Shown: positions 8,486 through 10,068 of the stretch, one piece after another
How positions within the stretch are numbered: the stretch's first letter is position 1
Layout of the letters: the number at the start of each line of letters is the position of its first letter
Assembly (NCBI RefSeq): GCF_001865245.1
Contig: NZ_MKXB01000194.1
Span: 62,001-126,000 of the forward strand
Length of the DNA: 64,000 nucleotides
Direction: 5' to 3'
From: Streptomyces sp. CC53
GTDB lineage: Bacteria > Actinomycetota > Actinomycetes > Streptomycetales > Streptomycetaceae
Program-made: the position numbers and the translations under genes
Notes under the pieces: model-generated
Databases searched by the model: none
What the model saw: only the letters and a program-made list of their open reading frames with translations
Told to the model about the DNA's origin: nothing

Positions 8486-8698
8486 TCACGGGCGCTGGCG
8501 CCTCGTCTCGTACCTGGTCAGAACCACGCCGCAGGGAAGCGTCCGTGTCTCCACCAGGTGCAGGTTCACCCAGCTGTCCAGCGTGGTGAAGAACGGCGTG
8601 CCGCCGCCCACCAGGACCGGCGCCGTGGCTAGCACGTACTCGTCAATCAGCCAGGCCCGCATGGCCGCTCCCGCGAGCATCGCGCCGCCGATGTCCAT
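8486..8698 (-). pseudogene. Remnant of a dihydrofolate-reductase/RibD-fold protein
   Basis: A C-terminal fragment of about 70 residues (IGGAMLAGAAM, IDEYVLATAPVLVGGGTPFF, VVLTRYETRR) that matches the end of the DHFR/RibD C-terminal superfamily common in streptomycetes. The N-terminal half with the NADPH and substrate site is absent. The frame stays open upstream past 8790 but shows no further family sequence there and runs into the opposing DIP1984 gene's leader. I read it as a decayed gene. The 250 bases between dnaB and this fragment hold no convincing gene. Confidence 0.6.
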
Positions 8699-8827
8699 CG
8701 GGCCGCCCCTTCGCGTCCGTTCCAGCTCCCTCAGCTGTTCGGAGCTCCAGTGGCTCAGAAACCAGATGCGGATCAGCGGGGTCGCGTTCGATACTCGTGC
8801 GAGCTCACGGAGGGGGAGGCGGAGACG

Positions 8828-9298
8828 GTGAAGCTTGCTGAGGCGCTGGCAGAACGTGCGGAGGCGACGCGGCGTGTGGAACAGCTACGAGCGCGCGTCG
8901 TCAGTAGTGCGCGATACCAGGAGGGGGAGACACCCGCCGAGGATGCCGCTCAGCTACTGGCCGAGGCCGGTGAGGTGCTGGATGCGCTGGAAACGTTGAT
9001 CCGTCGGATCAATCGGACCAATGCGACCGTGGAGATGGGTCCGGAGGGGACGCTCACCGATGCCCTCGCACGCCGGGACGTCCTGCGGTTGCGTCACTCT
9101 GTGGTCACTGCGGCGGCGGACGCGGCAGCGGGCAAGGGCGAGCGGGGATACGGTCGGCAGCTTCGGTCCGAGCTGATGATGCTCTCCGCGCTTCCGGTCG
9201 CGGAACTGCGCGGTCAGGCGGATGAGATCGCCCGGGAGATCCGCGAGGTCGATGTGCGGATCCAGCGTACGAACTGGGAGGTCGACCTGCTGGACTGA
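8828..9298 (+). CDS. DIP1984-family helical protein
   Basis: A 156-residue, almost entirely helical, charged protein, recognised as the DIP1984 family (KLAEALAERAEATRRVEQLR at the start; RIQRTNWEVDL at the end). No enzymatic motif is seen; long heptad-like runs suggest a coiled coil or scaffold. The GTG start at 8828 is preceded by GGAGGGGGAGG and begins exactly where family members do, although the frame is open further upstream. A structured tRNA-like sequence begins about 20 bases after the stop. Function is unestablished; I recall, without being able to check it here, that this family has been discussed in bacterial RNA-repair contexts. Confidence 0.8.
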   Translation: MKLAEALAERAEATRRVEQLRARVVSSARYQEGETPAEDAAQLLAEAGEVLDALETLIRRINRTNATVEMGPEGTLTDALARRDVLRLRHSVVTAAADAAAGKGERGYGRQLRSELMMLSALPVAELRGQADEIAREIREVDVRIQRTNWEVDLLD

Positions 9299-9318
9299 GG
9301 GGTCCGGCAAGTTGGGAC

Positions 9319-9430
9319 GATGTGGAGTAGGTAGCTGCTTCGGAGGCGTGCACACACCGAGGGCCGGCGGTTTTCCAGCCCACTCCTGGCGCGTGAAGAG
9401 CAACGCGGGGGTTCGACTCCCCACTATGAC
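9319..9430 (+). ncRNA. Candidate tRNA-like structured RNA
   Basis: About 112 bases directly after the DIP1984 gene fold by eye into a tRNA-like series of hairpins. There is a T-arm (stem 9408-9411 with 9419-9422, seven-base loop TTCGACT). A 5-bp hairpin CGCGT/ACGCG (9390-9394 with 9403-9407) abuts it like a long variable arm. An anticodon-like stem of 7 bp with one mismatch (9361-9367 with 9375-9381) has a seven-base loop. A D-arm-like hairpin AGTAG/CTGCT lies at 9326-9339. A weak acceptor pairing (9319-9325 with 9424-9430) has one mismatch and several G-U pairs. The extra 21 bases before the anticodon-like stem and the poor acceptor argue against an ordinary tRNA. Confidence 0.45.
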
Positions 9431-10068
9431 AGCGCAGCTCAGCACCGCGTACAGGTGACCGTGCACAGCGCACAGCACATCACCACGTGCAGATCCGGGC
9501 GGCGAGGGCGGGTTCGGGGCGTCCACATCGCAGCACCATGGAGAACGGCGAAGTCCGGCGGACGCTGTTGGCGACGCCAGCGGTTCTCCTGCGTCTGGGA
9601 CCGGCCCCGCGGCGGCGGGTCGAGCGGAGTCCCCGTGCCAGCGTGGCGAACGATGTGCTGGGGGCAGCAGGGGTGACGGCCGCCGGACCGAGGCCCCGCT
9701 CCGTCGTGCTCGTTCCGTCGGAGTACACGGCGGACGATGGCCTGCGGTGATCGCGTGCCCGGGCGATGACACCAACGACATCGATGGCAGGACGTGGGGA
9801 CCGGCGGGCTCGTCCTCACGCGCTCACCGGTGCTTCGCGGCGATATCGGTCGCTGCACCGGAGCGACGTGGCGGACGCGGGCGCCACGGAGGCGGGGGGC
9901 GTGCGTGCCCCGGGCGGGAAAGGGGTTGCCTCGCAGGGCGGTGGTCCGCAGGATGCCGCTCATGAAGACGAACCTCGTTCCGCTGCTCCCGCTGTCCACT
10001 GCTGGCGCCTCCCTGCGCCTCCAGCAGCAGTCGGACCTGCATCGGAGTGCGACGCTCGTGGCCCCCTG
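9431..10068. other. Non-coding stretch, no supported gene
   Basis: This 638-base stretch between the tRNA-like element and lysE has open frames on both strands, but none matches a family I know or has a convincing ribosome site. A 70-codon frame starting at 9538 has mild codon bias and is mentioned in the findings only. Confidence 0.5.

Follow-up and report, generated by a model that had tools for sequence, protein, structure and literature searches.

A structured RNA with two predicted pseudoknots, encoded behind DIP1984-family genes in bacteria and phages

Results

A conserved structured RNA of 213 nt was identified behind a DIP1984-family (DUF6847) gene in the window, which is the whole analyzed stretch of 64,000 nucleotides from Streptomyces sp. 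CC53. The RNA was delimited to 9318-9530 on the forward strand with a covariance model and 28 aligned Streptomyces homologues, and it starts twenty bases past the DIP1984 stop on the same strand. Its structure was firmly established by comparison of homologous sequences, which fold as a double pseudoknot with the helices P1, P2 and P3 and, in most members, a T-arm side branch. The linkage of the RNA to DIP1984 is near-strict, and the pair is both co-inherited and laterally mobile. As to function, we infer by analogy and with moderate confidence that DIP1984 and the RNA form a mobile two-part ribonucleoprotein (RNP), comparable to Ro60 with Y RNA, which serves tRNA surveillance or repair. In the initial annotation a tRNA-like RNA of 112 bases had been placed after the gene. 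The arrangement, a DIP1984-family gene with a structured RNA behind it in the same orientation, was confirmed by profile matches and covariation. The length was corrected; the true end lies at 9530 and not at ~9430, and the earlier description covered the 5' half.

Covariance model R1, built from 25 sequences including that of the window, matched the window at 9319-9529 (215.5 bits, E 2e-60). The RNA is closed by helix P1, in which 9318-9326 pairs with 9522-9530. All nine pairs of P1 were double-changed, 90.7% of the cells were paired (72 sequences), and the 3' strand is also the sharp 3' limit of the conserved block. This closing helix takes the place of the weak tRNA acceptor claimed earlier, and no acceptor stem was found. 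The long-range helix P2 (9334-9344 with 9494-9503) was double-changed in 10/10 pairs and paired in 92-98%, U9340 being bulged from it in the window sequence. P3 is formed by UGCAC (9349-9353) and GUGCA (9487-9491), reads AGCAC/GUGCU in other lineages, and was paired in 99.4% with 5/5 pairs double-changed. P2 and P3 are the central stack of the RNA. The position between them, 9345/9493, is not a Watson-Crick pair and showed an exchange of G-A and A-G (49 vs 13 sequences).

Pseudoknot 1 is of the H-type and consists of two crossing stems. Stem S1 (9356-9371) joins ACCG at 9356-9359 to CGGU at 9368-9371, with 79.5% paired and 2/4 pairs double-changed. Stem S2 (9362-9380) joins 9362-9367 to 9375-9380, with 96.8% paired and 6/6 pairs double-changed. 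The anticodon-like stem with a seven-base loop that had been described at 9362-9380 is therefore real and covaries, but it is S2 of the pseudoknot and not an anticodon arm. The hairpin noted beside the T-arm was likewise found to be real and covarying. It is P6, GCGU-GAAGAGCA-ACGC (9391-9406; 99.3% paired, 4/4 pairs double-changed), and it is part of pseudoknot 2 (9398-9440), in which the P6 loop GAGC (9398-9401) pairs with GCUC (9437-9440) in 96.8%. This contact can be generalized as GRGC with GCYC, being GGGC/GCCC in other lineages; its pair 9399/9439 exchanges between A-U and G-C, with G-C in 36 and A-U in 30 of 72 sequences. Within the loop of pseudoknot 2 lies the T-arm-like hairpin GGGG-TTCGACT-CCCC (9408-9422), whose stem was paired in 96.7% and double-changed in 4/4 pairs, so that the T-arm with a TTCGACT loop stands as first described. 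The presumed 21-base insert belongs to the RNA's own layout. Near the 3' end, preceding the 3' strand of P1, a near-invariant element, GAGGGCGGGNNNGGGG / GAGGGYGGGNNNGGGG, occupies 9504-9519; most of its columns do not vary in alignments A2 and A3. The 3' part of the RNA also holds a stretch rich in GCAC that has no settled fold.

Over 28 Streptomyces genomes, the RNA region averaged 82% identity per column. The 25-sequence alignment had 30/46 pairs double-changed, with 130 double-changed cells compared with 39 +/- 5 when shuffled and 18-28 when slid. With 72 sequences, 41/46 pairs were double-changed, and the 587 double-changed cells compared with 138 +/- 12 when shuffled (reached in 0/500 shuffles) and 70-120 when slid, although these counts lean towards the nested helices because the alignment was fitted to them. 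The pairs of S1 and pseudoknot 2 lie outside the covariance model; even so, 79.5% of the cells were paired in the former and 96.8% in the latter. When all column pairs were scanned for covariation without guidance, helix pairs of this structure took the top 35 places with few exceptions. Single-sequence folding gave no signal, either for the full RNA (z = -0.01) or for the segment described earlier (z = +1.8 and +0.95). RNAalifold returned partly wrong helices on alignments A1 and A2 due to misaligned ends and pseudoknots, a problem that was overcome by trimming the sequences at P1 and naming the structure explicitly.

Four stems proposed initially were checked for compensatory changes, which were found in the T-arm, P6 and S2 hairpins, and the pairs of the D-arm were not conserved. 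Three of the seven pairs of the D-arm-like hairpin at 9324-9341 were kept in less than half of the homologues (31/68, 26/68 and 16/70). The failure of this hairpin across 72 homologues is explained by its bases belonging to P1 and P2; the false D-arm appears in the minimum-energy fold of the single GC-rich sequence. The T-loop followed the consensus TTCRANT in 49/72 sequences, while the stem around it covaries. It is retained where the T-arm hairpin exists, as it does in the majority of the actinobacterial members and in some distant relatives. By eye, a T-arm was seen in Rubrobacter, Bryobacterales, an Anaerolineae MAG and Corynebacterium oculi, and it is missing in several Rhodococcus (fascians-type), Microbacterium, Clostridiales and other members. 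Judged from these alignments, the RNA carries one genuine tRNA module, the T-arm, and the molecule in its entirety does not mimic a tRNA. The original description of the entire RNA as tRNA-like was dropped on these grounds: D-arm, acceptor stem and anticodon arm are lacking, and the T-arm is peripheral and absent in several lineages. Its remark that this is not a normal tRNA is in agreement with ARAGORN and Rfam, neither of which made a tRNA call at 9318-9530.

That the RNA is a strict tRNA or tRNA-like RNA, with the processing and perhaps the charging of a tRNA, was considered extremely improbable. The T-arm with its TTCRANT loop would fit such an RNA, as would a tRNA-Gly called by ARAGORN within the RNA of a relative, but the window has no tRNA call, the D-arm pairs are not conserved, no acceptor stem or CCA is present and the T-arm is optional. 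A cloverleaf fold of the RNA was refuted by the covariation pattern. The tRNA-Gly call covers part of the relative's RNA (L064, 4524-4610), and false tRNA calls of this origin probably sit in some actinobacterial annotations.

A search of the genome collection with the DIP1984 protein gave 80 loci. The initial annotation had suggested a covariance model of the regions downstream of DIP1984 genes, and such a model matched behind 78 of the 80, always on the strand of the gene, which confirms a distinct RNA tied to DIP1984. In the remaining two, the locus lay at a contig edge (L086) or the gene was truncated (L092). Gene and RNA were found together in Actinobacteria, Acidobacteria, Chloroflexota, Clostridia and Proteobacteria. 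The model scores were highest in Streptomyces (230 bits), followed by Bryobacterales (93), Anaerolineae and Advenella (76), a Paracoccus plasmid (73), Clostridiales (45), the Rubrobacter MAG (43) and a Picosynechococcus plasmid (39), with noise at 19 bits or less. A reduced RNA below the reach of the model occurs in Acinetobacter, Psychrobacter and Enterococcus, where P2/P3 and the conserved core were recognized by eye. The Acinetobacter form has no G-rich 3' element, and its kinship rests on P1-P3 and on position as seen by eye, not on the model.

Whole-genome co-occurrence was counted within Actinomycetota only. Both parts were present in 30 and neither in 167 of 199 Streptomyces genomes; of the remaining two, G197 had a doubtful 22-bit protein match only and G012 a 3' fragment of the RNA only. 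Among 346 Actinomycetota genomes, nine had both parts. Of those with the protein alone, G283 is masked at the RNA site, in G425 the locus sits close to the end of its contig and the RNA matched in part, and G498 and G456 had no RNA by eye; one genome (G477) had a marginal RNA match alone. Protein and RNA distances correlated with r = 0.93 over 60 loci (0/2000 permutations). When 2.9 million viral contigs were searched for the G-rich element, clear matches (at least 28 bits) were obtained only in contigs carrying DIP1984.

The distance from the DIP1984 stop to the start of the model match had a median of 10 nt. This position, almost always directly behind the stop and on the same strand, would suit a structured 3' untranslated region of the DIP1984 mRNA that controls only its stability or expression. 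The RNA of Enterococcus is immediately followed by an intrinsic terminator. A purely cis-acting element is nevertheless quite improbable. Two phage contigs (L149 and L153) have other ORFs between the DIP1984 gene and the RNA, and a third (L148, 4537-5022) has two tandem RNA copies behind one DIP1984 gene, which argues for an RNA acting in trans. Furthermore, two pseudoknots and near-invariant stretches within 213 nt amount to a great deal for a 3' end, and no cis role suggests itself for the T-loop.

The DIP1984-family gene (8828-9298, forward strand) starts with GTG and encodes a four-helix protein of 156 aa. The protein scored above both curated cut-offs, with 168.7 bits against PF20935 of Pfam (E 9.3e-50, cut-off 27) and 180.6 bits against NF038048 of NCBIfam (E 1.9e-53, cut-off 70), and is a member of the DIP1984/DUF6847 family. 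Its named relatives at up to 97% protein identity are from Streptomyces. The AlphaFold2 model (pLDDT 93.5) has helices at 3-27, 40-67, 76-101 and 124-151, and both the model and the fold comparison were all-helical, in line with the helical partner protein predicted initially. PDB 3kdq has the same family and fold (E 1.6e-26; TM 0.9); it was deposited as functionally unknown and its entry title names no RNA. A structure of the family has been available since 2009, with no function assigned. Beyond 3kdq, the fold search with the model returned no relatives at E <= 0.001 and matched no known RNA-binding or toxin fold. Matches in BFVD, A0A6J5TA17 and A0A7L8ZNY0 among them, were large-phage proteins of ~190 aa (TM 0.4-0.6, E 0.05-0.2), which by these model comparisons are possible distant DIP1984 relatives. 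The N-terminal MKLAEAL hardly differs from phylum to phylum, whereas its codons do, and the constraint therefore acts on the protein. With a pI of 5.1 and a charge of -5, the window protein is acidic, which disfavors simple non-specific RNA binding, so that RNA should be bound specifically, if at all.

In most of the named Streptomyces loci, homology was limited to ~780 bp (window 8760-9540), comprising leader, gene and RNA, and the flanks differed. Conservation ended at about the end of P1 (9530-9540) in most of these loci. The conserved leader (8760-8827) precedes the gene within the homologous block and is the probable promoter region of the cassette; no sigma-70 consensus site was found in the leader region. 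Three loci, namely this window, L040 and L043, have the pair near dnaB. Upstream of the cassette, a short ORF on the reverse strand (8486-8698) resembles the C-terminal portion of a RibD/DHFR-like gene and is probably a gene remnant. Four of the Streptomyces loci hold a relic, in which the DIP1984 gene has lost its 5' end. The family was also found in hundreds of records of Acinetobacter plasmids, some annotated as septicolysin, a label without support.

Mobility of this kind raises the question of an addictive or defensive cassette, that is a toxin-antitoxin-like or anti-phage pair in which the protein would, for instance, be held in check by the RNA, or in which infection would trigger death or arrest through the pair, the neighboring repair genes being bystanders or counter-measures. 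A 780-bp unit among unrelated flanks, a patchy distribution (31/199 Streptomyces) and relics in which the RNA was left behind by a 5'-truncated gene are all compatible with it. So is the frequency of the family on small Acinetobacter plasmids, some of which carry it in dif modules under the name 'septicolysin' (PMC13141974). The DIP1984 protein, however, had no match among the PADLOC defense models and no toxin fold, its core is strongly conserved with the MKLAEAL motif, and the phage copies sit inside tRNA arrays. The repeats of type III antitoxins are also far less complex than this RNA. An addictive or defensive cassette was therefore regarded as fairly unlikely.

The genes around the pair were examined in the relatives. 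In Acinetobacter, the order is rtcB, a hypothetical gene, DIP1984, the RNA and rtcA, as seen in a plasmid record and in a phage-labelled record resembling a piece of chromosome. In the Rubrobacter MAG, the order is tRNA-Asp, DIP1984, the RNA and rtcB. A recognizable rtcB within 4 kb was found at 1/80 genomic loci. The connection of DIP1984 to RNA-repair loci that had been proposed thus holds for Acinetobacter and the Rubrobacter MAG but not for the genome of the window, in which no repair gene adjoins the pair and RtcB is encoded on another contig (C169, the window being on C194). Eight viral contigs carry DIP1984; the RNA was found by the model in five and by eye in a sixth (L155), where a tRNA-Gly gene follows it immediately. 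Arrays of 23, 17 and 9 tRNAs in 7.5-8.5 kb make up three of the viral loci, and one array has an RNA_ligase gene (PF09414).

The phage-labelled record is 'Acinetobacter phage MD-2021a' (L161, CAKLQH020000004.1), which at 232 kb and with rbn, rtcB, rtcA and pepD resembles a bacterial chromosome. In Acinetobacter, the product of the hypothetical gene that separates rtcB from DIP1984 (L118, 1840-2490) contains RNKLEHDY, similar to a HEPN nuclease motif; it had no match in Pfam and only a weak one in PADLOC. In A. baumannii AB0057, tigecycline raised rtcB and the gene behind it 252-fold (PMC7652931).

Discussion

The rtcB/rtcA operons and the phage tRNA clusters point to an RNA-protein machine dealing with damaged tRNA. 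In such a machine, the RNA would be co-transcribed with DIP1984, or cut from the DIP1984 mRNA, and the DIP1984 protein would hold it as a ribonucleoprotein acting in the manner of Ro60 and its Y RNA. Enzymes that handle tRNA, or nucleases that cut it, could dock on the T-arm branch, and the protein-RNA core would unite broken tRNA, or related RNA, with a ligase such as RtcB or the RNA ligase of a phage. The Streptomyces pair would be a stand-alone accessory cassette that uses RtcB encoded elsewhere or serves as a decoy for a tRNase. More tentatively, and at somewhat less than even chance, the pair may represent a new RNP class, carried by a 0.8-kb mobile cassette in bacteria and tailed phages, with the RNA as a docking scaffold or decoy for enzymes of tRNA cleavage and repair and with DIP1984 as the core protein. 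The acidic protein, the lack of an RNA-binding fold, the small number of lineages with repair operons, the optional T-arm and the Acinetobacter form without the G-rich 3' element all speak against an RNP for repair.

The nearest functional model is Ro60 with Y RNA, and the DIP1984 RNA is not a member of that class. Both Ro60/Rsr with its Y RNAs (rsr-yrlBA-rtcBA) and the DIP1984 pair combine a protein gene with an adjacent structured RNA, a tRNA-like domain and, in few lineages of the DIP1984 pair, rtcB/rtcA operons. YrlA RNA has a tRNA-like domain and is located in rtcBA operons (PMC7790460). In contrast to Ro60/YrlA, the partner of the present RNA is not a TROVE protein, the fold has two pseudoknots and no D-arm, an Rfam match is lacking, and most genomes with the pair have no repair gene adjacent to it. 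The TROVE match of the window genome is on contig C189 and not on that of the window (C194), and the neighbor of the RNA is DIP1984, not rsr.

OLE RNA with OapA offers a parallel, a complex RNA conserved in many taxa and linked there to a single small protein. The DIP1984 pair resembles it as a large structured noncoding RNA with a dedicated small protein. It differs in its smaller size, its lateral mobility as a pair, its repair and phage-tRNA contexts and the absence of an Rfam match.

Rfam 15 contained no family matching above gathering at the window RNA or in 17 related loci, where only ordinary tRNAs elsewhere were found. A search at E <= 1 with the RNAs of two relatives gave nothing, and a permissive threshold with the window RNA gave chance matches only. 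Among the titles and abstracts naming DIP1984, DUF6847, 3KDQ or septicolysin, none was about an RNA, and some genome-wide surveys of noncoding RNA made no mention of rtcB or tRNA-like RNAs. The RNA is new to Rfam 15, and an RNA-repair survey of 2016 may have mentioned it earlier.

The pairing with a large, highly constrained RNA gives the functionally unassigned DIP1984 family a concrete partner. The rtcB/rtcA operons, the phage tRNA arrays and the RNA ligase suggest a further route in the fight between bacteria and phages over tRNA. If the RNP reading is true, the pair would add an RNA-protein platform for tRNA repair to the Ro60/Y RNA and Band-7 systems.

Band-7 proteins are known from RNA-repair loci, and Burroughs and Aravind reportedly described in 2016 a 'novel tRNA-like molecule' with SPFH/Band-7 scaffolds in such loci. 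By that description, the molecule is said to share with the DIP1984 RNA its tRNA features, its position beside a putative scaffold protein and its occurrence in RNA-repair loci, the difference being that it is tied to Band-7 and not to DIP1984. Beside the Bryobacterales pair (L099, 487-2591), divergent genes were observed that are PspA-like and SPFH/flotillin-like by eye.
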